From the NCBI GenBank assembly GCA_029204225.1, contig CM055110.1, forward strand, positions 1,699,672 to 1,763,671: a stretch of 64,000 nt of DNA, given 5' to 3'. This DNA comes from Diphasiastrum complanatum. Taxonomy: Eukaryota; Streptophyta; Lycopodiopsida; Lycopodiales; Lycopodiaceae. Below the pieces are notes generated by a model. That model was not told where the DNA came from and did not search any database. It saw only the letters and a program-made list of their open reading frames with translations. The translations under genes were made by a program, and so were the position numbers. This document shows positions 1,021 to 60,619 of the stretch, piece after piece; the first letter of the stretch is position 1, and every line of letters begins with the position of its first letter.

Positions 1021-2316
1021 ATGGGATCTATTGGAGCATACCTTCAAGAAACTAGTGAGAGATTGAATTCTACTAATTATGCTATTTGGAAGGTTAGGAT
1101 GGAGTCACTCATGGGGTTCCAAGACCTTTATGAGTTCTTGATTGAAGATGAAGATGAACCTCTAGGTGCACATGAGTTGATCAAATACAAGAAGAGATCT
1201 AGGCTAGCATTTCATTGTGTGAAGATAAATGTAAGCAATGAACTTTTGAGGGAAGTATCATCATGTACTAGTGCTAAAGAGTCTTGGGAGTTTTAAAAAT
1301 CAATCTATGATCCAAGCAACACTTATAGAGTACTTATGCTTAAAATTCATAGTTTGCAAAGCATGAGGAGAAGTGAGGAGAGTGCACATGATTATGTACT
1401 TAGAATCAAGTCTCTAAAGAGGGAGTTGGCTTCCATTGGAGAGAAGATTCACGATGGAGAGCTTGTACAGATTATCCTTAATGGTCTAGGAGATGACTTT
1501 GCAAATTTGGTCCAAAGTGTTGCCATCCAAGACACTTTGCCAACTGTAGAAAAACTTCACAGTGTATTATTGGCTGAAGAGTGTAGGATGCTCCACACCA
1601 AGGCAAGAATGAGTTCACTGTCCTTGCAGGATGGAGATGAGAAAGCCAATTTCTCATTCAACTGTAAAAAAAAGACCAATGGAAAGAAGAAGCATCCAAA
1701 TGAGGCCAAAGAAGAGGATGATGCATCAAGCTCAAAGGACAAGTCAAAGCAAAAATGCTTCTTTTGTGGAAAGAAGGGGCATTATGCATCCGAATGCTAC
1801 GAGAGACTAAGAGCACAAGAGGAGGAGGACAAACAAGGAAACCTTGCACATGAGGAGGAGGAGGATGAAGTAGATGTATTCTTGATGGCATCTACATCCT
1901 CACCAACAAGCAATGGCAATTCAAGAGATATATGGTGGATTGATAGTGGGGCTAGCTCCCACGTGTCTTTTGAAAAGGATTTTTTCTAAACCTTACACTT
2001 ATTCAATCATGCTAAAATTTTTGTTTTTACTGCAAGTGATGAAGAGTGTAGGATAGATGGTGTTGGTACCATCTCTATGTATCTAGAATCCTCAATGAGT
2101 TTGGATCTAAAAAATGTCCTTTATGTACCATCAATCACCAAGAATATGCTTAGTGTTGGTCTACTCTTAGAAAGTGGTTTGAATGTCCACTTTAAGCATG
2201 GTGTTTGTTTCATTTTGAAGAATGATGTTTGCATTGCAAAGGGATTTAAACATGGAAGATTGTTTAAGCTGGAAGCTAGTGTTGCTTTTGAGAGTGTGAG
2301 CTTGGCAAAGGATTGA
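1021..2316 (+). pseudogene. Ty1/copia gag-protease fragment (copia family 1)
   Basis: One frame reads from an ATG at 1021 to a stop at 2314-2316, broken by in-frame TAA codons at 1294-1296 and 1987-1989. It starts with a copia gag of the UBN2 type (ERLNSTNYAIWKVRMESL, then SIGEKIHDGELVQIILNGLG). A CCHC zinc knuckle follows (CFFCGKKGHYASEC, CX2CX4HX4C), which in this family binds RNA. The retropepsin active site WWIDSGASSHVS comes next, then the pre-integrase region (NVLYVPSITKNMLSVG). Integrase, reverse transcriptase and RNase H are absent. Apart from the two stops the frame is undamaged, so decay is moderate. The same gag recurs inverted at 4010-4290. Confidence 0.9.
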
Positions 2317-14390: not shown

Positions 14391-17300
14391 ATGGTAATTC
14401 CAAAATACGTGAGCTTTGTTTTGAGAGCTCTTTGTGTTGCAATCATTTTCCTGACAACGGGATTTTCTCATACTGTCGCTGAAAATGCAAAAGCATATCA
14501 TCTCGACGGAGATGAGCAAGTGAATCAAATGAACAATCTTTGAAATATTCGGACTGTAGAGAAGGCATTAGACTTTCTTCACAGAGCAGCTGAAACAGTT
14601 GGCGTCGACTACAGTAATTGTCGATCAGAAATTAATACTGCACTGGAGGCGCTATACTTGGCAAAGACTTACCTCGTGGATGAAAACGATGATCTGATGG
14701 GTCAGCTAGGGCGTGCCAAGAAAGCACTCTGTTCCTGCAACAACACTATCGCGACATGGAAAACGGTAAGCGTTCTAGTTGCTCTTGTCTCTCTATTCAG
14801 TTTCATGATTAGCAGAAAGGTCAATTAATCGCATGATGTTTTAATCATGAAGTTGTTAGGCTTGAGAAGGTTTATTTATGTATTCTAAGTTTGCATCACA
14901 TATTGAAGCGATTTTTTTCTAATAGTGTAAAATACAAAGAGCATATTTTTATATACTTTCATCTGTATTAAAGAACTAAGCAGGCAAACTCCTTTAAGTG
15001 TAGATCATAGCATCGAAATTGTATCGTCTGTTATATCATCTATCTCAGTCACGAATCCCTTGTAAATATGTACACCTGAGGTGTCTTCCTCAAGCTACAG
15101 TAAGTACTCATGTAAAACCTAAAGGCACTCTATCTGTCAAATATGATTGAGCCAAGTCAAACCTTTCAATCATAAGCCAGTCTGCATTATGCTACCCCCG
15201 CAAGAGGCAATTTAAACGACAATAAGCACATTTCTACTTGGATATTCATTAGAATCGCACGAATTTCATATAGATGTTGTAAATATTATCGTTAGAAAGT
15301 TTTCAGTTATCAACTTAATTTTAACAGTTTGGCGCTAACTAGAGAATCGGCAAATGTCATATATGCCCAAAGTTACCCTGTAGCTCAGGGTTATCATGCT
15401 TTTTGAAAAGCCAGGCAAAGCATCGTTAGTAACTACAAATTTCCATTTTGCGTTCTTATTGCGAAGAGTTGAGATTATTCGATCTGTTCAGGATTGTTTG
15501 TTGTGTAGGTGGATTTGGGGAGAGTTGTTCTCCACTTGGTAAAGCGCGCACTCGAGAATGTTGAAGCCGTGATGGAATCATTGAACATGTTCGTGAGCCA
15601 TTCAGCCTCCTACCCAAATCTAGAACCCAATTGGACAGTCAACTGGAAAGGCATTCAGACTTACAGTACGTTTCTTTATGAAACACTCTCGTAAAATTTC
15701 ATGCTTATTAGTTTACTCCTATTGAGGTCTTGCACATCATGATGCCACTTAGGAAAGAGTTCCCTCCTCCTCAATTACGCCCACGCAGTTTATTTAAATC
15801 AAGACAAACCACGTACCAGACATTGTCTGTTGAAATTAATTTGAGTGTTTGGATTAGTTTTCCAAAATATATAATTCGATAATGAAGACTGTAAAAGAGC
15901 ATTGTGCAACTTTCTTGCATGGATCGTTCAGCCAAAAGCACTAAATTGAAGTAATGTGCTTCTTTTTCACGTGGATATACACCATGCATGAGTTCTACGA
16001 AACTAAAATTCTAGCGCGCAAATTAAAGTATTCATTCCCCCAAATAAACTTTTTGATACATTGTTGATGGCATTTTTGGTTCTGAGATATTCATTGCAAT
16101 AGAGTTGCTTCATTGAAATCTGTTTAGAACCAATGCACCTGATTGCAATATTCTGGAGGTCCAGCCCTTGATTCTTTGAGTTTCCAGAATTGAATTCCAA
16201 AAGCCTTTTTACTGTTTTCCTAGAGATTGAAATGGCTTAATACGTCAATATTTGGTTCGAACTACCATTTTTATGTGAAAAATCTTCACTCTTGCGCTAC
16301 TTCACCGTCGAGTACTGTTTGTTGTGATCTTTTGCATTCTGTTTTTTATTTGTTTGTCTATAGTGCAAGGCAGTTGTGCTTGACATGTGCAATCTGCACT
16401 CATTGGTTCCTGTAGAATGAAATCATTTAGTTTTAGTCATATTTTTTATCTTTTAAACAGTAGCTACATCTGTTGCTCAAAATCTGCTCGTTAGGCTAGA
16501 AGATTGAGAATCACGTGCTAACTAACACTTACCACAACGTCATATTGACACACGAAAGACAAAATAAAAACGCTGTTACTGCCCAGAATGATGTCCATTG
16601 TATTGTGGTGACTGGTGAGCAGGTGCAAGTATAGACTACATCGCATATGGTACCACGTGCCAGTTTACAAGGTCTGGGTCAGGAAGAGCACTTCCTTCTT
16701 GCGCATTTGGCTTTGCTGCAGGTGTGACTGGGGGTGCCAATGGGCAATCCTATGTAGTCACGAATTCCGATGACAATCCAACAAGTCCTCAGCCAGGTAC
16801 TCTACGATATGGTTTAAACTTGGCTCGCAAAGACAACAAAGGAATATGGATCACCTTCGAACGAGATATGCTAATTGTGCTTTACGACAAATTATGGGTA
16901 ATGAACTCCACAACAATCGATGGTAGAGGAGTAAATGTCACTATAACTAAACAACCTGTGGTGCTTTGTGGTGTGACTAACGTGATCCTTCACAATTTTC
17001 AAGTGAATTCAATTGACAACAGTGACACTGTGCACATTTTTGATGGGTCCACGAAAGTGTGGGTAGATCATATCACCTCATTTGATGCAGACAAAGGATT
17101 AGTCTCCGTTGTTCAAGGCTCCACGGATGTTACAATCTCCAATTGCCGCCTGTCCAATTTAAATTTTAACATGCTACTAGGAGCTTCTGATTATGACTTT
17201 GAAGATAAGAATATGCGGATTACAGTGTATAGAAATTGGTTCAGAGACTCATTTCAGCGCATGCCTCATTGCAGGTACGCCTTGTATTCTGAGACTAACG

Positions 17301-17948
17301 CTGTTGAAAATTATAATGGATAAATATGTTGAATAAGTATGCTGTAAAAAGCTAAGCATGAGCACGTAAATTCAAGATTTAGAATTGTTAATAAGATGGA
17401 TTTAAGCTTTTGACAGTTGTTTTCCTACATCCCTTCTTATATGTGCAATCTAGACCTTCAGTATCTGTGATCGCGATGATCCCTCCGAGAGGTCAAGAAA
17501 TAAATCGTATGAGTTGCATTTCTAAACGAGTAGTTGATTACCTTACAACTGTTTGGATTGCAGACTGGGTTACTGCCATGTCAGTAACAATCTTTATACC
17601 AATTGGGGATTTTATGCGATTGGAGCGCGTGCACATGCCACAATCTTAAGTGAACGAAATCTTTTTAGAGCTGGTCAACGTAAAGAGGCAACTCCATGGT
17701 TTCCTGGAGCAGCAGAAGTCAGCGGTTTTGATGAGACATCTATTATTCAATCCGTACAGGATGAATTCCGCAATGGTAGCACATTTCATCAGTTTCTTCA
17801 ATTTGGAACGGCAGATGGAGTGCCGTATCCTAGTGATATGGGCTATCCTCGTATCCATCCAACTCGCACACTAGATGATCTGCTTCAACATTGTGCAGGA
17901 GCTCAATTTGGTCTCAATTTACGTACATGCTTATCCGGCACAGATTAA
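14391..17948 (+). pseudogene. Pectate-lyase-like (PL1 family) gene with helical N-terminal domain, in-frame stop in exon 1
   Basis: Four exons (14391-14765, 15509-15665, 16623-17274, 17564-17948) join in frame at GT..AG sites and give 523 codons with the final stop. Codons 1-30 encode a signal peptide, so the product would be secreted to the wall, where PL1 enzymes cleave de-esterified pectin by beta-elimination. Codons 52-175 form an unassigned helical, Cys-containing region. From about codon 195 the pectate lyase beta-helix is clear: YVVTNSDDNP, TIDGRGVNVTI, KVWVDH (323-327), RMPHCR (390-395) and NWGFYAIGA. Differences from typical plant enzymes are: the DGLID calcium-site block reads DKGLVSVV, the HDKVMLLGHSD block reads NFNMLLGASD (catalytic Lys position changed), and the first Asp of the SDGDG block is lost. 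Codon 51 is TGA (14541-14543). Either a recent pseudogene or a sequencing or allelic stop; the domain seems catalytically impaired in any case. Confidence 0.85.
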
Positions 17949-32719: not shown

Positions 32720-33649
32720 TCAAAACTTATGTTTTGCTCTTGGCTTCCATTCCCAATCATCTTCAAGTCGAGTGTCAGCATCCAACCCTTTAGTCAAATT
32801 ATGGTATTTTAATATCACACAATGGACTTGATGTCCCTGACAATGGAAATAATCCACTCCCAATTTCACATTTGGTCCCAAGCTTGACTCAACTAGGAAC
32901 TGATCGTTTTTGGATTGGTTGTGGCTATTATAGAATGTGGATATACGAGTATCAATCAGAGCATTTTCATATTTGGATGCATTTTCAATTGCATAATCCA
33001 AACTAGTCAGATGCTTTTGTCTCAAATGGACTTGCATCTCTGTTTGCAATCCACTTATGAAGTAATCAAATATCAATTCAATTGGAAGTGCATAGATAGA
33101 GATGTGTTTTTGCACAAACCAATTAAATCTATGAGAATATCTTCCCACATAATCATCTTCACATTGTCTGATAGCTACCAAATGGTAACAAGCAACCGTT
33201 ATATTCATCTTGGGTGAAAACTCATCCAAGAATGCTTTTACCAAGGTATCCCATGAGTCAAGAGAATGGATTTCAAAAGCTTCAACATTATCATACCAAT
33301 CTCGAGCTTTATTGGTCAGGTATAATGGAAATAACAATTTCCAATCTTTGGGTTGTGAGAAACCATCTAGGAAAGAGAAGTTCATGAATTTTCGTATGAA
33401 AATATCAGCTTTATCACCTCTCTCTCCATCATAATGATCAATCTTAAATAGGTACACAGACTTTGGTCTAACACAGAGGGAGTCGCCAGCAACGAACACA
33501 GGTTGCACAGTATTACGATCAGGTTTAGCTCCTGATTTTCCAAGATCGTACTCCAACTCATCAAAGTTGGGAACACTCTTAGTTGACTCAACTACCAAGG
33601 TTTCACATGTAAAATTGCATGTATGGATATTGCATGTACCGCATGTCAA
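32720..33649 (-). pseudogene. Ty3/gypsy gag, long intact frame
   Basis: A 309-codon minus-strand frame has the retrotransposon gag core: DHYDGERGDKADIFIRKFMN, then FPLYLTNKARDWYDN, DTLVKAFLDEFSP and YVGRYSHRFNWFVQK. A zinc-knuckle-like remnant follows (DYFHCQGHQVHCVILKYHN), with the usual spacing lost. Gag coats element RNA in particles. The frame is intact but pol is absent downstream (below 32720), and LTR-like DNA begins right at its upstream end, so the element is truncated on both sides. Confidence 0.85.
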
Positions 33650-33930
33650 CTTTCAGAATTACCTAGACATGTGTAGATCATGAAAACTACTTTGCATGTT
33701 GCATGCAGTGATTGCATGTTGCTTGCATGCAATCTGAATGACTTTGCATGTAATTTAAACTTTTGCATGACATCAAGATTGAACCTACCTAACTCAAACT
33801 CGACCTATTCTAGAAGGTTATGTGCTCAATTCACATACCTTTATGTACAATAAAATATACAATGGAAATAAGATAGGCATGGCCCCCAAACTTGATATAG
33901 GAAGATATATCTTACTAATCTTCACAGATA
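33650..33930 (-). mobile_element. LTR-like segment with TGCATG cluster
   Basis: About 110-150 bp around TGTGAATTGAGCACATAACC (minus strand, near 33830) match the plus-strand segment around 44010-44120. This suggests a shared LTR or leader family. Nine or ten GCATG motifs, mostly as TTGCATG, lie in 33610-33780. Confidence 0.5.
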
Positions 33931-34772: not shown

Positions 34773-36770
34773 CTATCCTGGTAGAGTACAAAACTTTTCA
34801 AATTTACATCTACCTAATGACTTAGTAAAAATATCTGCCACTTGATCTTCAGATTTACAAAAAACAAGATCAATGGCTCCATCAAAAAAATTTTCTTGAA
34901 CAAAATGATAATGTATTTCGATGTGCTTGGTTTGAGCATGTAAAACTAGATTTTTGGCAAGGTGAATGCAACTTTGATTGTCACAAGATATAGTAGTCTC
35001 ATCCACCTATGGTTGACCTAAATCCACAAGCAATCTTCGTAACCATACCGCTTCTTGTGCAGCATTGCTGAGTGCTCGATATTCAGCTTCTATCGAGGAT
35101 AAGGCTACTGTAGGTTGCTTTTTGCTATTCCATGAAACTGCAGCTGTACCATAACTGAATGTATGACCACTAGTAGACCTTCTGTCATTAGTATTACCTG
35201 CCCAATCAGCATCTGTATATCTTATCAATATTGGCGCTTCAGGCTGATTATATTTCAAACCTAAATTCAATGTCTCTCGAATGTATCTGAGAATACGTTT
35301 AGCAAACTTCCAGTGTGTTCGACTAGGATATTGCATAAATGACTAACAACACCAACAACATAAGCAATATCAGGTCGTGTGTGTGTCAAATAAATCAAAC
35401 TACCCACCAGTTGTCTACACAAATAAGCATCCAGTTTCTCAGATTCATCATATGCAGTAAGCTTCATGTTGACATCCATAGGTGTACTCAAAGGCTTACA
35501 ATCCTGCATATTGAACTTATGAAGCAAATCTCGTGCATATTTGCTTTGTGTAAAAAAGACCATGTCTTCCTTTTGCCATACTTCAATGCCAAGACAATAG
35601 TGCATCAATCCTAGATCACTCATGTCAAAGGCATTGGAAAGATCTGATTTTATTTCATCAATTAAGCTCTCATAACTTTCTGTAATAATCAAATCATCCA
35701 CGTACAACACAATGAACACTATATCTGAATCTTGCCTTAGAATGTAAAGATTAGGATCAGCATCACTCTTTACCATTCCCCTTCGCTTAAAGTGTTCATC
35801 AATGCAAGAGTACCACGTCTTTGGTGCTTGTTTCAATCCATAAATAGCTTTGTTGAGCTTACAAACAAGGTGCTCTCTCTCTGATTCAATAAATCCTTGA
35901 GGTTGTACTAAGTACACCTCTTCATCCAGCACTCCATAAAGAAAAGCATATTTAACATCCATTTGCTGGATCTTCCAACCATAGAAAGCAAAAATAGCAA
36001 TGATAGAATGTATAGTTACCATCTTAGCTACGGGTGCGAAGGTTTTCTCAAAATCAATACCTTTCTGGTGCTCAAATCCTCTCACAACCAACTATGCTTT
36101 GTATTTGTTGAGTTGCCCATCAACTCCATATTTGATCTTGTATATCCATTTGCAAGTGATAGGCGTCTTACCATCAGGTAGCTCAACCAAGTTCCAAGTC
36201 CTATTTTTGGATATAGCTTCCATTTATGTTTCCATAGCTTCACACCACTCCTCGTACTCCTTTGCTTTATCAAAAGTTTTTGGTTCTTGAGCCTTGAGCA
36301 CAAAATCGTTAGGGCTAGATTCATCTCTAATCTTGCAGGAGGTTTTCGATTTCTACTTGATCTTCTAAGCTCTTCTTGCTTACTAGATTCGAGAGTACCA
36401 TTTAGGTACTCTCTTGGGAATTTCAACATCAGGCTTGCCTTTGTCCAATGGATTTTCTATATCAGAATCCACTTCCTTCTTGCCCTGTACTTTTACCCCC
36501 TCATCAAAAGGTTCAGTGATTACTTCAGATTGTTCACCTCGGCCCATCTCGACAAATGTAACATCCCTAGAAATTACAAGCTTCTGTGCATATGTTGATC
36601 AGCATAATTTCCTGCTTGCTCTTTGTCTTTTCTTTGTTCCATCTCCTTCTATTTCTTGAAGCATTCACCCTCCCAATGGCCAGGTTTGTTGCAATACCTA
36701 CAATTTCTAGGTTTATTTTGCCTAGAATAGCCGCATCCTTGACCTCGGCCTCGATCACAACTAGAAAACT
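34773..36770 (-). pseudogene. Zinc knuckle, RT and RNase H of the split copia element (3' half)
   Basis: Read on minus. A CCHC knuckle at about 36710-36660 (CRYCNKPGHWEGEC) is followed closely by the pre-RT linker (ELRRSSRNRKPPARLEMNLA). Protease and integrase are therefore deleted. Reverse transcriptase is well preserved at 36091-35267, with QMDVKYAFLYG and FIVLYVDDLIIT (the YVDD catalytic pair). RNase H (35336-34773) keeps its acidic residues: RYTDADWAGN, SSIEAEYRALS and CDNQSCIHLAKN. A frameshift near 35300 and a stop at 35007 divide the frame. A polypurine tract and 3' LTR follow. The knuckle's 5' side stops at palindrome array 2. Confidence 0.93.
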
Positions 36771-50830: not shown

Positions 50831-51105
50831 ATAGGTTCAGATCCCTAGAAACCTTTGCCTAGATTTTTATAGCCTATTTTTACAGTACTGTACATGCCTG
50901 CAAATTTTTGTTCAAAACTGATCAGCCCAACTATTATTCAATGTAATGGACCCACCAAATTCACCTATAAGTTGGCTGAATTTGATTCATTCCTCACTTG
51001 TGCTAGCGAAGCTCTTGCAAATTTTTCTTGCGACCAAAACCTTCCAAATTTCTTGCATTGCCTTCTGATACACTTTCATGCGTTTATAATTCCTTTTTGA
51101 TCATC

Positions 51106-53579
51106 ATGTCTTCTATCCATACTTCCCAGTCTTCGCGCTATACTATCCATCGTGATGTCCCATCTGCAACGGACATCATGATTCTTCCTAGCACAAGCAT
51201 GGTCACTCAGTGGATGACCCTTGCGGAGCCTCTACTTACTGCAATGGGTATTCATGAGAAAGTCTTTTCGGGACGCATCAATATGGGTTTTATCATTCTT
51301 GCCTTCAGTACGTGGAAGGAAGAGAGATCCAAGTTTTATATCACCTTCCAAGGAGCCACACACAAGGTGCACGTCACTGAGACTGCACTTGTAGCTATAG
51401 GAATTCCATCTGGTACGCAAGCCTCATCCAATCACAAGCACGCCAAACAGGTCATCAAGACATACATTGACCTCACCAACGATGTGCACTGGAGTAATGA
51501 TGGCTACCTTTTGGAAGCCATCACTGAGCCTTCCATCCACGCCGCTGCCCAGTTGTTGAATCATTTCCTGATGGTTGGCAACCTCAGGAAAGACCGCATC
51601 ACATCTCAAATCCTTCACAGGATAGTGGAGTTCCACACTAAGTTGGCCAAAGCCCCTCTTGAACCATATAACTGGTTCAAGACTATTTCTGGTGAGCTCA
51701 AGCGAGCTATTAAGGCCAATACAAAGCAGCAGTTCACCGTTGGCTCTCTATTGTCCCTCTTCGCCGCTTCTCACTTAGAAAACAGAATCCATGACTTTCA
51801 CTTGGATTTTGTGCTTTCGGTTTACGAAGAAACACAAGCCGAGTCATCTCATCAAGCCTCAAGTTCTCATAGTCGTCGTCGTCCACGCAGTGAGATCGTA
51901 ATTCCTGAATTGTCTTCCGCGTCACGACGTCGCACTAGGCATACCTCGTCAGCTGCGCTTCCACCCCCTGCTACTGTTCGCACTGAACTTCCCATTCCCC
52001 TCACCTCTGATGCTTCCCTCTCCTCTACTCCCTTACAAGGACAATCTGTGACCTTTGGGCCTACCATTCCCATCACAGCTGCCCAAGTCGCCTCACCCTC
52101 GCACACCGAAGCAACCTCACCCAACACACAGTTCTTCATGGATATGTTCGATGATTCCGACCCTCTTGGGACCAACGAAATTTTTGAAATGCCCCAGAGC
52201 CCAGCGCCCTTTGAACCCCAATCCCGTGGAAGAGGATTCGGGCACATCCATGAATCTATTGTTGGTGTCGAAGATGCCAGTCAGCAACCACCCACACAGG
52301 GTAGCCCAGCCAAACTTTGGGTCGACACAACTGTAAAGTTACCAAAGCAGTTCGACGCCACGGTGCCTGAAGGGTTTGAAGAAGAGGATATTTTTTAAGA
52401 AGAAGAGACCTTGTCACCTATTCCACACCTACCAAGGACAGTACCATCAGGGTCTCCTACTGTTGTCACCTCCACGATTGTTGATTCTGGTGATGCTCTC
52501 AGGTTAGTTTCAAGCCTTGGGCAAGTGATTCAGTCTATGCTGGATAAGAAGAAGAAAATGGAACAGAGGATCTCTGATCTAGGATCCGAAAACACTCTGA
52601 TCAGCCAGAAAATTGTCCAACTAGATCAAGAGGTGAAGATAGCCAAGCAACATGAAGAAAAGATTGAAAGTGAAAAGACATTGGCCCAGCAACAAGCTGA
52701 TCGCTTGGAAACCTACATCAGCTCCCTACAAAACGCCCTGACAACCGCACAGAATCAGATAGATAAGGCAGTGCAAGATGCCAAACAACAAGTGCAACTG
52801 CTGAAGGGGCAATTACAGATGGCCAAACAAGATCGCACACGGCTTCAAACTGAATTGGATGCGATCACCCTTGAGCGTGATGCATATCTGCAAACACAAA
52901 TACCCGATCATCTGATCACACTGACGGACATTGCATATTGTTCAAGAAAGTGGAAACATACAAAGTGGCCCTTCAACAATTCCAAGGCCGCTTTGACAGG
53001 TTCAAAGGAGCAGCTTCAACCAAGTTGGCAAATGCAAAAGAGACCATTAATGCCTATGAAAAAGCCGCCACTCAAGTGTTGGAAGCCGGACTACAAATTC
53101 CCATCCCGGTCATGCCTCAATTCTCTCCTTCGCGCCAAGAAGTTGTACAAATGGATACAAAGGTTGATTCGAGTATGGACCAGGGGGGAGCTCCAGATCT
53201 AGCAGATCAACCGCCAAGCATACCTGCAGTACAAACAGGTCCATCCTCATCAAGGACAACCCATTTATTTAGAAGGCACATCAACGTCGAGGACCAGATC
53301 CAAACCTTCTTAAAGCAACATCCACATGAGTCCCCGCGTGGTGGATGGGTTCTAAAATTTAAGACCTCCGAGATCGAGACTGACAAAGAATTGGACAAAA
53401 TACCTGCACTGGGAGAGCAACCGACATGGAGAATCACGGTTTTTGAGAGAACTCCGAAATCCATTAGGAGTTACGTCGCCAGCCCTCGTCAGTTGCGGGT
53501 AGATCCTTATTACGTGCCAATGCCGCGAAGACAAAAATGGAAAGATCTGGGATTGGCTATGGACAAAATCACCAGATAA
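51106..53579 (+). pseudogene. Retroelement-associated coiled-coil ORF (copy C, best preserved)
   Basis: ATG at 51106 opens 430 codons: an N-terminal domain (ITFQGATHKVHVTETALVAI; LEPYNWFKTISGELKRAIKA; VGSLLSLFAASHLENRIHDF) and a Ser/Pro-rich linker. A TAA at 52396-52398 interrupts it, but the same frame continues through a long coiled coil (ENTLISQKIVQLDQEVKIAK, about 52520-52900). Near 52930 a one-base shift leads into frame 3 and the C-terminal block (RGGWVLKFKTSEIETDKELD; TPKSIRSYVASPRQLR; PYYVPMPRRQKWKDLG) ending at 53579. Copy B at 22.5-24.8 kb has the same order. The N-terminal part may relate to plant transposon-protein domains, but this is not certain. Function unknown; possibly a structural or nucleic-acid-associated protein of a gypsy lineage. 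Confidence 0.75.
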
Positions 53580-54450
53580 CCAGAGATAGAGTAAAAAGAA
53601 GTATCATGATAATCCAAAAAAGGTATGTAACCAGTGTACTCTATAGGTATGACATGAAAAACCACAAGTCGATAGACTTACCTATGGATTCATGATTCAA
53701 ACTGTCAAAGGACATGTGTCTTGAGAGAAGGAGATGTGCAAATACTTCTAAACATGATGACCAGAAAAAACATGACATTGAGACTCATTTTTTTTTATTT
53801 TTATAGATTTTTTAAAAAAATACTTATATTTAAAATGCTTCAAATAAAGATATTGTAATCTAACAAAAATGTTGTATTTTACAAGAAAATTAATCAAGCT
53901 ACTAAATTTTTGTTAATAGATTTTTATTAATAACTGCAAATTAGCTTATATAAAATAATAATACTATTTAAAATAAAATCATTAGACACACAACTACTAG
54001 AATAACTAAAATAAAATATTTTGCTTATTTAAAACAAAAGTTTTCAATTGTTTTTTTAAATTTTAAAAGTTTTCAAAATTGCAATTCTTGTATTAAGAAA
54101 AATATTTTTTAAATTAAAAATTTTAATCAATATTTACATCTTTACTGATATCTAAACATTAAATGATTGCAAATGAAATTATTTCCAAAAACTTATTATA
54201 AACACACAACGAAAAATTTAAATATTAAAAACCTGACAGTTCTTTGCAATTTTAGTTTTGCTAATATTCAAATCATTAAAAAAAATTACTAAATCTATCT
54301 TTTTAATAGAAACAAATCTAAAAATATCAAATTAATAAAAAAGATTTCAATACACAATATTTCAAAAAATAACAACGCAATTATTTTTTAAAATAAAAGA
54401 GAGTTTATTACTCCTAAAAATTATCAAAGTCATTTACATCTTTTTTTTTT
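53580..54450. other. Very AT-rich non-coding stretch
   Basis: About 80 percent A+T with many A and T runs and a T17 tract near 54441. No ORF was recognised. On minus it lies downstream of the methyltransferase remnant and may be its 3' untranslated or intronic DNA. Confidence 0.4.
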
Positions 54451-54559
54451 TTTTTTTGAGGAGCCACTACAATGTCAATTGAAACCTCTTCCACAATTTT
54501 CTTGACAACTGTAACCACATTATAGTCTTGAACTAGGACATCAGCCTATATCACTGACT

Positions 54560-56320
54560 TTCCCACTAGCAGGAAGTTGGGATTCTTTGGACAAGAAAAT
54601 TACTGAGTCCTTATTGTCTGAATTCTTTTCTACCTCAACCAATTCATCTTGCAAAACCGAAAGAGATTTCATTTTCATTTTTACGAAATCAACTAAATTA
54701 GAATCTAAGTCTACTACAATATCATGTCTGCCTTTCTAAACAGGACATGCGGTCGTAGTGCCACTACCGCTAAATAAGTCCAAAACCCAATCAGCTGGGT
54801 GAGAAAAAATATCAATGAAATGATTAATTAATTGTTGTGGCTTTTGATAGGGACAAGCCACGATACTCATCATTTGATTTTTAAGTTTTTTTGTCACGGC
54901 TGGATATTGGAACAAGTTGCCAAAACTTGTCAGCCCGGAGGTGTTGTAATGAAGCATCGAGCGCTTATTGTCCAAAGAATAAAAAACCAATGGTTATATA
55001 TTCTATTTCATTGCAAAGTTGCGCTCCTCCTGAGTTTCTGACATTAGGCTTGTACCTAAAAAGGAACATTACAGTTAATATAATAAAAAAATTCAAATTG
55101 TTTAAGTTAACATTGTTGCTTATACTAAAATTAAAATAAAACTTTGAATTAAAATACAAATTAATAATTCACGGATTTAAGGACTTACTACACAACATTT
55201 TCTATTCCCTCGTTACAGAAAGTTAATAAAGCTTTTTGTACTGAAGCTGATTACCAAGAGGAATGAAAAATAACAACTCTCCAAATAGGGGATGTTGTGA
55301 TTTCAAGAAACTCTTGCATGAAACTATGGATTTCACTGAATTTGAAAGGAGAATCATCATTTAATGATTCCTTCGTCTGAAATCCATATGGTATATCGGC
55401 AATGCAGGCAGGGTGTGTAAGGCCCTCTCTTTAAAAATTTTAAAATCTCTCTACAATTGTCCTCCTCAACTATGTAAAAACATGGTTGATCAACGACATT
55501 TTTGGGGAGGTAGGTCTCTAAAGGATTCTCCTCCGCAATGGTCTCACCTTGTGCTAGTCTTTCCCTGTCCTTTTTTTCAGCCTTCGCTTTCAACATATGT
55601 CTTCCGAATTGCTTTAGAAGGACTTTGTTTTTCTTATCTTTGGGGGACTGAAAAAGGAAAAGCTATGCTTAGCATATGAGATAAAATATAAAAAGACAAA
55701 GAAGAAACTATGCTTAGCATAGGAGATAAAACATAAAAAGATAAAGAAGAAGCTATGCTAAGCATAGGAGACAAAATAGAAAGAGATAAAGAAGAAGCTA
55801 TGCTTAGCATAGGGGATAAAACATACAAAGCTAAAAAAGAAGTTATGCTTAGCATGGGTGAAGTAAATACCATGTCTCTAAACAAAATAAAAAATGGACT
55901 TAGAGCCCTACTCAAAGGATAGAGCCTTTGGCACTCTTCGAAATCCTAATAGTTTAACTCTGTCACAAGGGCCTCTTGAACTTTCATAAACAATTAATGT
56001 CTACATTTAAAAAAATGTAATTGTTAGAAATTCTTTTAAATCTTGAGAATCGTTTTATAAAAAAAAGTGACTTGAAAATAAATATTTAAATCATGAATAT
56101 TACCTCTAAAATTTCTTTCCCATTTTTGCAAGGGAGAGTTGACCATCTGCAACTCTAGAAATAATGCTTATTATTAGCTCTGACGAGCTAATCCCTTGCA
56201 TGTTCTTCGACTCTGATATTCCCATTTCTGTAGGGATTGGCTTCAAAGTTCGAGAGATGACAACTTTATTTTTTTTCCTTCGAGGCACTCTGAGTAAGTT
56301 GGTCTTTTATTTGAAAATTC
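54560..56320 (-). pseudogene. Beta-class DNA amino-methyltransferase (N6-A/N4-C type) remnant with introns
   Basis: Read on minus. A basic N-terminal segment (VPRRKKNKVVISRTLKPIP, 56320-56106) and a small possible exon near 55984-55910 come first. The next exon (55647-55255) reads SPKDKKNKVLLKQFGRHM and YIVEEDNCREILKFLKRG. After a frameshift it reads PACIADIPYGFQTKES, carrying methyltransferase motif IV (DIPYG, cf. DPPY), then WRVVIFH. An intron (55254-55056) separates RYKPNVRNSGGAQLCNEIEY. Another frameshift leads to PQQLINHFIDIFSHPADW and VLDLFSGSGTTTA, the AdoMet-binding motif I at its beta-class C-terminal place. An in-frame TAG (54736-54738) precedes KGRHDIVVDLDSNLVDFVKM. Intact enzymes methylate the amino group of adenine or cytosine in DNA. 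Damage: two or more frameshifts, one stop, motif IV Pro-to-Ile. Spliced structure argues against bacterial contamination. Confidence 0.75.
55660..55880. repeat. 45-bp tandem repeat, about 5 copies
   Basis: The unit starts GCTATGCTTAGCATAGGAGA and is 45 bp long, so it keeps the frame. On plus it encodes a 15-residue repeat around EEAMLSIGDK, with stops in the first copies; on minus an uninterrupted Leu/Ser-rich frame. Each unit holds the near-palindrome TATGCTTAGCATA. It lies in a presumed intron of the methyltransferase remnant. Confidence 0.9.
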
Positions 56321-57117
56321 TTCCACTTGTTAAAAATTTTATCAACAAGGGCCCATACCTAAAATCAAAAGAGATTGCAATTATTTAAAAGCAATTTAAG
56401 GAATATTAAAATAAATTTTAAAATTTAAATCTAATAACATAAATTTTGAATAGAGCATTCCAAGCCAAGCATTTAAAAAAAAATACATGGCCACTACGGA
56501 AAGCAAGTTGAAAAAAATTATCATATTTTGTAAGGCTCTACATAGGATTTTTTGCATCAAACGGCAGGCAAGAGGAGGCTATTTTTGCCATAGTGAGCAA
56601 TTAGATTTTTTTCTATTCATTATCTCTCATAGTGAGGACTTAGCTTTTTGAGTCTGTGGTATGCCATTGTGCTCTTGCCTTGGATTTTTCAAGTCATCTG
56701 TTCTTTGATCATTCATATGCAATCACAACACCTTAGTAAGATCTTGTAAGGTGTGTAGTGAAGTTCACACATGCTAAAAACTTTACAAGTATATTCACAA
56801 AGAATAATAAAAACCTTTGAAGTAGGAGTCCGCTCAGCACTGGTCACCAGAAGTCACCAGGAGTCAGCCCTTCGCTGCTGCTCATTCACTATAGTCTGCT
56901 CATCCGCTGCTTAGGAGTCAGCTCTTTGTTGTTGCTCGTTCACCATAAGTGTGCCATGCTTAGCCCTCCGACAAATATTTTTTTGAGGAGATTAAAAATT
57001 TATAACTTTTTTTTAAATAGGTAAAAAAAGTAATACCAGTTTTTATTACCAATTGAATCTATAATTTCAAAAATGAGCTCATAAGGGCTTCGTAGATTTT
57101 TTTCGAGCATTGGAGTG

Positions 57118-57120
<3 letters not shown>
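56321..57120. other. Non-coding
   Basis: No gene was recognised. A short direct repeat of GTCACCAG(A/G)AGTCA(C/G)CC type and GCTGCTC-rich sequence lies near 56840-56940. Confidence 0.3.

Positions 57121-57207
<87 letters not shown>
57121..57207. repeat. (GA)43 microsatellite
   Basis: An uninterrupted GA run. Overlapping SL-repeat ORFs are artefacts. Confidence 0.97.
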
Positions 57208-59226: not shown

Positions 59227-59710
59227 GAATAGAACCGTCAAAGTCGTGGAAAGACGCTATCTTAAAGATAGAGAAGGCTCACCATGCTGAGGTTTTTCTT
59301 CCAATTTTTAGTTTTTACTATTATTTTAAAAGAATAGAATCGTCGAAGTCGTGGGAGGAGGGCTATCTAAAAGATAGAGTCACTCACCAGCGAAGCTTAG
59401 GTTCTTTTCGAATTTTTAGTTTTAAAGAGAATAGAACTGTCACAGTCGTGGAAGGAGGCTATCTGAAGGATAGAGTCACTCACCAGCGATGCTTAGGTTA
59501 TTTTCCAATTTTTGTTTTTTTAAAGAGAATAGAACCGTCGCAGTCGTGGGAGGAGGCTATCTGAAAGATAGAGTCACTCACCAACGAGGCTTAGGTTCTT
59601 TTACAATTTTTAGTTTAAAAGAGAATAGAACCGTCGTAGTCATGGGAAGAGGCTATCTGAAAGATAGAGTCGCTCACTAGTGAGGCCTAGGTTTTTTTCC
59701 AATTTTTTTA
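59227..59710. repeat. Five tandem ~97-bp repeats, each with a short hairpin
   Basis: Copies begin with GAATAGAA at about 59227, 59332, 59428, 59527 and 59624. Each contains a CGTCxxAGTCGTGG box, then CTATCTGAAAGATAG (6-bp stem), then GAGTCxCTCACCA and a T-rich end. The first copy has a 7-bp stem (CTATCTTAAAGATAG, 59257-59271). Spacing varies only in the T-rich part, so the boxes are conserved more than the spacers. Confidence 0.92.
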
Positions 59711-59891
59711 GTCTTTATTTTATTTTTTTGTACAAACAAAAAAAATCAAAAAAATGGCAAAATCTTGAAAAATGGCAAAACTAACACGAAATCACACTAA
59801 TCTAACCCCAAAAATTCTAATTTTTTTGTGTGAATGAGAGAGAAAAAAGAGAGAGAGAGAGGAGGGAGAATAGAGAGAGAGAGTAGAGAAA

Positions 59892-59894
<3 letters not shown>

Positions 59895-59960
<66 letters not shown>
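59895..59960. repeat. (GA)n tract
   Basis: GA run flanking the left side of the hairpin at 59962-60076. Confidence 0.95.
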
Positions 59961-59961
<1 letters not shown>

Positions 59962-59963
<2 letters not shown>

Positions 59964-60076
59964 TATGCGGTGAAGTGAGTGTGTGGCGCTCCCCGGCAAC
60001 GACGCCACTGTTGTGTCGTCGATGTAGCATAGGGGTTCGTCACTGGGAGCGGCAACCTCACCTTCACCTGCATAGC
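59962..60076. repeat. 115-nt imperfect hairpin between two (GA)n tracts
   Basis: The left arm has GCTATGC, GGTGAA, GTGAG and CGCTCCC in order; the right arm has GGGAGCG, CTCAC, TTCACC and GCATAGC. These pair over about 25 of 32 positions with a loop near 50 nt that itself has CGACG/CGTCG. GA tracts lie on both sides. It could be a fold-back element or a small-RNA-precursor-like structure; the sequence alone does not decide. Confidence 0.75.
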
Positions 60077-60077
60077 A

Positions 60078-60079
<2 letters not shown>

Positions 60080-60154
<75 letters not shown>
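60080..60154. repeat. (GA)n tract
   Basis: GA run of about 75 bp between two hairpin units. Confidence 0.95.
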
Positions 60155-60155
<1 letters not shown>

Positions 60156-60157
60156 AA

Positions 60158-60320
60158 AGTTCCAAGTAGCGAGAGGTTTGGGAGACCCGAGCACCTTCCC
60201 CAAACTATTTGGTCGCTACTTAGAGAGAGGAGAGAAGAGAGAGAGGGAATGCCTAGGTTGAGAAAGGCCTTGGGGGCTCGAGCGTCTACCCAAAGCTATT
60301 CTGTCCCAATGGAGAGAGAG

Positions 60321-60366
<46 letters not shown>

Positions 60367-60529
60367 CCTAGGTTGAGAAAGGCCTTGGGGGCTTGAGCGC
60401 CTACCCAAAGCTATTCTGTCCCAATGTAGAGAGAGAGAGAGAGAGAGAGAGAGATTTCCTAGGATGAGAAAGGCTTTGGAGGCTCGAGCGCCTACCCAAA
60501 ACTATTCTATCCCAACATAGGGATAAAGG

Positions 60530-60530
<1 letters not shown>
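60158..60530. repeat. Four related hairpin units alternating with (GA)n
   Basis: The first unit (60164-60221) has the perfect stem AAGTAGCGA/TCGCTACTT enclosing GTTTGGG/CCCAAAC. Three later units (about 60252, 60363, 60454) share GCCTAGGTTGAGAAAGG, CTCGAGCG and CTACCCAAAGCTATTCTGTC, and keep a TTGGG/CCCAA stem. GA tracts of different length separate them, at 60310-60362 and 60425-60453. They seem to be copies of one unit amplified with GA ends. Confidence 0.85.

Positions 60531-60619
<89 letters not shown>
60531..60619. repeat. (GA)44 microsatellite
   Basis: GA run that closes the repeat field. Confidence 0.97.

Follow-up and report, generated by a model that had tools for sequence, protein, structure and literature searches.

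A broken gene for a bacterial-type DNA methyltransferase in a lycopod genome raises the question of how it came to be there. The gene was noticed in a 64,000-nucleotide stretch of Diphasiastrum complanatum DNA (the window), and the original prediction had allowed three origins for it: a decayed host paralogue, an old transfer, or cargo of a transposon.

A decayed methyltransferase gene with introns

Both motifs lie exactly where they had been reported on the minus strand, with DIPYG (motif IV) at 55383–55397 and DLFSGSGTT (motif I) at 54754–54780, and the beta-class order, motif IV upstream of motif I, is borne out. In the profile check proposed at the time, positions 54541–54993 matched PF01555 at E=2.5e-12 with one TAG read as X (47.7 bits against a cut-off of 26.7), and the single open frame alone also exceeded the curated cut-off (E=2.4e-11). 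Among solved structures in the PDB, the joined window segments came closest to M.RsrI (1.5e-7), followed by M.MboIIA (1.4e-4). As measured by these profile scores, the likeness of the window gene to PF01555 is far beyond chance.

The plant setting and the decayed, intron-bearing state of the gene were also confirmed. The genome holds 37 matches to the light-harvesting family PF00504, and the window copy is interrupted by frame changes near 55405, 54973 and 54565 and by several stops, including ones near 55252 and 54737. The splice acceptor at 55648–55649 had been placed correctly. An intron had been proposed at 55056–55254; it exists and ends at 55056, but its donor had been set too far upstream, the true intron being 55056–55188 (donor GTAAGT, acceptor TTTTTAG). 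Twelve other copies were compared at this site, and the GT donor is kept in 10 of them and the AG acceptor in 10.

A family of hundreds of copies with a second gene

Searching the 1.74-Gb genome returned the gene many times over, and all copy counts given here are lower bounds. PF01555 gave at least 1605 first-look candidates, of which 150 were scored and 150 exceeded the curated cut-off; the catalytic exon gave at least 2515, with all 150 scored matching at E≤1.4e-68. With the 1.8 kb of window DNA as query, the 40 places scored among at least 1731 candidates yielded 56 pieces of 76–100% identity, found on small contigs as well as on 18 of the 24 largest. The methyltransferase family in this genome comprises hundreds of copies, many of which contain stops.

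Twenty 10-kb loci around methyltransferase copies, picked mainly for long open frames, share DNA that extends well upstream of the methyltransferase. Mapping exon peptides onto them revealed a further gene, opposite in strand, the core of which is DUF7869 (PF25273, E=2.4e-26 in locus L028), a domain of unknown function in Pfam. The divergent pair was present in 5 of these 20 loci (L010, L021, L026, L027 and L028) and in all three of L029–L031, a set selected for matches to both families.

Across the genome, linkage was assessed by position among the best or first 100–150 places for each feature, some pairs and loci being duplicates of each other. Among the matches listed, 14 methyltransferase–DUF7869 pairs lie within 15 kb, against 0.39 expected. 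The strands are opposite in 8 of the 14, with seven of these 4.9–5.8 kb apart; the six pairs in the same orientation may join neighbouring or nested elements. A smaller, earlier comparison found four pairs separated by 10 kb or less, where 0.32 would be expected; three of the four were divergent. Orientation relative to the ends of the element, again among the matches listed, was as expected for methyltransferase to left end (same strand, 6/6), methyltransferase to right end (15/17) and DUF7869 to left end (opposite strand, 7/7). At three places the two genes point the same way with about 4.4 kb between them (C6:63469138/63473508, C6:63678730/63683084 and C12:6351832/6347448); two of these places look like copies of each other, as in a recurrent composite or tandem arrangement.

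The ends themselves are common to insertions with unrelated flanks. One full-length copy (L029) has both ends, spans 9,084 bp and is flanked on each side by AACT, with stops in both genes; the methyltransferase of the full element apparently has five or more exons. The terminal inverted repeats (TIRs) of complete copies are short (AACACGATGAC.../...GTCATCATGTT). Among five further left/right pairs, a 4-bp duplication is perfect in three (TTAA, AGTG, CAAT), matches at 3/4 positions in one and is absent from one, so that a perfect 4-bp target-site duplication (TSD) accompanies 4 of the 6 copies tested, L029 included, and is imperfect or absent in 2. The left-end pattern, with up to 3 mismatches, occurs at 772 places in the genome (0 for the reversed pattern), and the strict right-end pattern at 107 (control 0). 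A 1.5-kb derivative at C5:69073713-69075200 retains the two ends of the element and shows no clear TSD; it is possibly non-autonomous or rearranged.

These copies bear directly on the origin of the gene. An origin as a host paralogue now in decay, or by one old horizontal transfer, would suit a gene with introns that encodes a bacterial-type enzyme with phage relatives (27–43% identity in the best 20 of 59 records), but it does not suit hundreds of dispersed copies in TIR transposons, with common ends and TSDs, and any lone-gene reading also conflicts with the methyltransferase being half of a conserved two-gene unit. We regard such an origin as highly improbable and, for this locus, rejected it on copy number and ends; a domesticated single-copy relative may exist elsewhere in the genome. 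Transposon cargo is the one of the three proposed origins that the copies agree with, since the gene sits inside them.

Large DNA viruses and Maverick-like elements often carry methyltransferases, and an integrated one could have brought the gene in. Against this stand the size of the elements (6.0–9.1 kb), their two recognised genes and two scans of a viral contig collection, which found no relative; the empty viral scans led us to discard a viral origin. No capsid, polymerase or integrase gene was found among the ORFs scanned inside the TIRs, and in the scanned ORFs of the element nothing with a name was recognised apart from DUF7869 and the methyltransferase, nor any partner endonuclease. 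An origin of this kind is extremely unlikely.

A second lineage in a cyanobacterial MAG

A scan of GTDB with the AdoMet-exon alignment found seven relatives, six in the MAG uncultured Trichormus sp. ERR2144891_bin.1 and the seventh a weak Chloroflexi match. The cyanobiont of the water fern Azolla belongs to this genus: it is Trichormus azollae, under which 'Nostoc azollae' 0708 falls. Because the six contigs have a GC content of 0.36–0.40 and appear to contain introns (one of them within motif I), and because a frame in L055 resembles a gypsy element by eye, we took the MAG contigs (L050–L055 and L057–L064) to be contaminating eukaryotic DNA, which probably comes from Azolla. The run number ERR2144891 did not occur in the available excerpts of the Azolla metagenome paper (PMC5901025).

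DUF7869 occurs at 8 places in the same MAG, in frames of 529–924 aa with no internal stop, those of L057–L061, L063 and L064 measuring 873–924 aa. PF01555 gave 11 matches there, a number of them probably normal genes of bacteria. Contigs C142, C204 and C433 carry both genes, divergently arranged, in elements with both ends of 7,805, 7,724 and 6,044 bp. Their 31-bp TIRs begin with AACA[CT] and match at 24, 24 and 29 of 31 positions, respectively. A TGTT duplication flanks the C204 element and no TSD was found for C142 and C433, giving a 4-bp TSD in one of the three copies with both ends. These three contigs are the ones that were read through, the others being short. Identity to the D. complanatum copies is 31–53%, depending on the exon. 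The two-gene element, with open frames, occurs in a second lineage.

The relic in the window

The window copy retains the right end, a scrap of the preceding exon, the upstream exon, the catalytic exon and the AdoMet exon (Table 1); it has lost the DUF7869 gene, the palindrome-rich intergenic region, the left end and the first methyltransferase exons. Its homology to other copies stops at 56569–56570 in six distinct copies (L017, L018, L021, L023, L029, L030) and at 53750–53751 in six (L014, L016, L023, L024, L025, L029). The upstream exon begins alike in L011, L018, L021 and L029, with an acceptor followed by GTRTGGGCCC. On its likeness by eye to the MAG copies (...QGIKDETLLVSVLSRVLAKELSLDEM), we read the segment at 56106–56306 as the upstream exon of the methyltransferase gene; tblastn of a MAG copy's exon against the window gave no match at E≤0.01. 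Since its own scaffold bears copies almost identical to it (C19:1607089, 100%; C19:2281883, 99%), the relic has probably been carried in local duplications. The window gene is almost certainly a truncated, decayed copy of a plant DNA transposon.

Table 1 Coordinates of the relic and its parts in the window
Feature	Position	Strand	Basis
DUF7869/methyltransferase transposon relic, right part only	53751..56570	-	Limits of DNA homology to other copies
Right terminal inverted repeat, TGGTCATCATGTT	53751..53763	-	10/12 match to left end AACACGATGACA of complete copies
AdoMet-binding exon, motif I, two frame changes and stops	54411..55055	-	PF01555; 59-79% identity to L014
Intron	55056..55188	-	Position common to other copies
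Catalytic exon, motif IV DIPYG, one frame change and one stop	55189..55647	-	73-82% amino acid identity to L014
45-bp tandem repeat, 4.5 copies, in intron before catalytic exon	55653..55855	-	Five ATGCTWAGCAT palindromes
Upstream exon remnant (VWALVDKIF..., ...QGISSSELIISIISRVADGQLSLAKM)	56106..56358	-	Exon start common to L011, L018, L021, L029
Preceding-exon scrap (..SLTKYDNFFQLAFR..)	56487..56570	-	By-eye alignment with L029, L018, L021, L011

Other features of the window were recorded alongside the relic. Adjoining it, 51007–53579 (plus strand) contains long frames with related DNA in L028, perhaps an unclassified retroelement protein; the frames of 463 and 232 aa had no Pfam match at E≤0.01. 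A pectate lyase fragment at 16619–17320 (plus strand; PF00544, E=5.4e-14) is a possible host gene among retroelements, which are represented by fragments of a Copia-type reverse transcriptase (35270–36091, minus strand; PF07727, 1.5e-56), a copia gag (1297–1986, plus strand; 2.9e-10) and a retrotransposon gag (32723–33652, minus strand; PF03732, 7.9e-10). A tandem array of 96- and 194-bp units occupies 59227–59707, and GA runs lie at 57113–57207 and in pieces within 59836–60619.

The two proteins and selection on their genes

In the methyltransferase, the commonest catalytic motif is ADIPYG, both in this genome and in the MAG frames. Motif IV of beta-class enzymes is canonically DPPY or SPPY; here DIPY is instead the most frequent form in this genome and the one seen in the MAG catalytic frames read. 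A ParB-like domain in the upstream exon, suggested by GGxH...EEAKLLAWDHN, had no support from Pfam, PHROGs or the PDB and was retained as no more than a lead, and the search of the same three collections for a DNA-binding domain upstream of the methyltransferase returned sub-threshold matches only (best DUF6551, E=0.053).

Position, copy number and invariant residues make the DUF7869 protein the probable transposase of the element. Eight aligned frames share MD, DNxxRxNKN and VGHTHxxIDQ without variation, acidic residues included. DUF7869 is the sole Pfam family above cut-off in that gene, in which no named transposase domain was found; a profile of the eight frames found nothing in the PDB, and the open literature searched yielded no mention of 'DUF7869'. 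The genome holds at least 2954 first-look candidates for the domain. A second DUF7869 lineage is also present (L032, L035, L036 and L038), 23–26% identical to the methyltransferase-linked one.

Selection was estimated on frames chosen for being open, which biases all of the following values, and as raw pN/pS for the MAG copies, in which synonymous sites are largely saturated. In the MAG, the methyltransferase had a pN/pS of 0.112 in its upstream exon (15 pairs from 6 sequences) and of 0.117 in its catalytic exon (6 pairs from 4 sequences), compared with 0.265 in DUF7869 (28 pairs from 8 sequences). In D. complanatum, 18 open AdoMet exons had a median dN/dS of 0.24 (143 of 153 pairs usable), with 0.30 to 1.44 for the eight closest pairs; the upstream exon gave 0.26–0.73 (6 pairs) and the methyltransferase-linked DUF7869 0.56–0.73 (3 of 6 pairs usable). 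This is the usual pattern for transposon genes, constrained in the active lineage and decaying once inserted.

The same values weigh on the idea that the true unit is the DUF7869 transposon, which at some time captured a methyltransferase that has no role for it. The excess of first-look candidates for DUF7869 over those for PF01555 or the catalytic exon fits this idea, as does the existence of a second DUF7869 lineage; the open methyltransferase frames, with a pN/pS of 0.11–0.12 that is below DUF7869's own, do not, nor does the repetition of the divergent layout in a second lineage at 31–53% identity. Because purifying selection in the MAG copies is strong, the methyltransferase is unlikely to be a passenger.

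Palindrome arrays

Within the window, ATGCTWAGCAT was matched eight times with at most one mismatch (1.69 expected), and all five exact matches fall in the tandem repeat of Table 1. Copies elsewhere have up to 14 such sites. In L029 all 13 are non-coding, nine being intergenic (several 41–42 bp apart) and four lying between methyltransferase exons. The full palindrome, of 17–21 bp, is AACCTATGCTNAGCATAGGTT, and its arrays are found in the intergenic region and in introns. There are 2141 genomic sites for CCTATGCTNAGCATAGG (control 0), and, when 12 listed clusters of this sequence were compared by eye with 100 listed mismatch-free left ends, 3 of the clusters were no more than 5 kb from one of these ends. 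Half-sites are kept in L030 and in the diverged L022, the AdoMet exon of which is 56% identical.

The intergenic palindrome of the MAG elements differs (GTCGATGC-N3-GCATCGAC), with an ATGC-N3-GCAT core common to both lineages. It was chosen after inspection of C204, which has 4 full and 9 half-sites against maxima of 2 and 1 in 300 shuffles; C142 has 2 full and 4 half-sites against maxima of 2 and 2 (300 shuffles), its full count equalling the maximum. Palindromes showed no excess conservation relative to spacers in five recent copies. No array with three identical palindrome copies was found in L009, L010, L012, L013 or L026: L010 and L026 contain scattered imperfect palindromes only, and L009, L012 and L013, where the methyltransferase end alone was examined, have none in array form.

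An element protein may bind these palindromes, and the strongest rival to self-methylation is that they are operators for DUF7869. DUF7869 would then bind them as operators or enhancers and the methyltransferase would act elsewhere, for example genome-wide, as has been reported for Marchantia DN4MT. Arrays between two divergent genes occupy the classic position of an operator, and the methyltransferase has no detected DNA-binding domain; on the other hand, palindromes also occur in the methyltransferase introns, and they lie in the middle of the element rather than beside the ends, where transposases usually bind. We consider an operator role a real possibility, to be held tentatively.

Discussion

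Overall, we think it very likely that the element is a two-gene transposon of the cut-and-paste type, with DUF7869 as its probable mobiliser and a methyltransferase that may mark the element's own control DNA. In the working that we propose, DUF7869 would move the element, and the methyltransferase would methylate the control region, with either its own upstream part or DUF7869 guiding it to the palindromes. The methylation could tune the two promoters, as self-regulation, or keep host silencing off. Self-targeted methylation, taken as a separate claim, is a tentative proposal. More speculative and rather doubtful is that the elements form an undescribed superfamily of land-plant DNA transposons, with a DUF7869 transposase, a 4-bp TSD, an obligate bacterial-type methyltransferase and an origin early enough to be common to this genome and a fern, in which 4mC or 6mA might be read or written at palindromic iterons as a self-marking code apart from the host's 5mC.

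Several superfamilies of DNA transposons have 4-bp TSDs, among them Sola, Ginger and Chapaev. The element resembles these in its TIRs and 4-bp TSD, and differs in that its probable transposase gene has DUF7869 as its one Pfam family above cut-off and no named transposase domain was found. Its enzyme shares the motif order and the QKP..L..I..FS....VLDLFSGSGTT block with the PF01555 beta-class enzymes M.RsrI, M.MboIIA and M.PvuII, from which it is set apart by DIPY, a long upstream region, introns, the transposon setting and the lack of a recognised endonuclease beside it.

Transposons with their own DNA methyltransferase are already known. DNA methyltransferases have been described in retrotransposons, namely dinoflagellate LINE and DIRS elements and elements of Klebsormidium, with Dam-like enzymes in DIRS, and the same source mentions DNMT-encoding DNA transposons in marine viruses (excerpts of PMC5890265). 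As set out in those excerpts, the retrotransposon systems are similar in that an element present in hundreds of copies encodes its own methyltransferase, which poses the question of self-methylation, but they use C5 or Dam-like enzymes, whereas here a TIR DNA transposon carries a beta-class enzyme and DUF7869. In the literature searched, which lay outside Repbase and subscription journals, we met no account of TIR DNA transposons that have a beta-class amino-methyltransferase as a selected partner gene. The PF01555 enzyme N4CMT of bdelloids, of bacterial origin and depositing 4mC (PMC8885841), and the eukaryotic 4mC methyltransferase DN4MT of Marchantia (PMC8566409) are, by the descriptions in the excerpts available, host genes, whereas ours belongs to a transposon.

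The nearest working model is provided by VANDAL elements of Arabidopsis, in which binding of VANC proteins to short motifs leads to loss of DNA methylation (PMC5735166). According to the available excerpts of that paper, VANDAL21 and VANDAL6 likewise have element-specific short motifs arrayed as tandem repeats in non-coding DNA (upstream regions and introns). Those excerpts do not describe the VANC motifs as palindromes, and VANC lowers methylation, whereas the second gene here is a methyltransferase with putative binding. By analogy, a methyltransferase could achieve the same outcome by adding a mark instead of removing one.

These elements are a possible source of the bacterial-type methyltransferases of plant genomes and a candidate route for 4mC or 6mA into the plant epigenome. 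Their context suggests a function for DUF7869, and the enzyme and its palindromic target arrays would form a natural pair for studying how a transposon recognizes itself.
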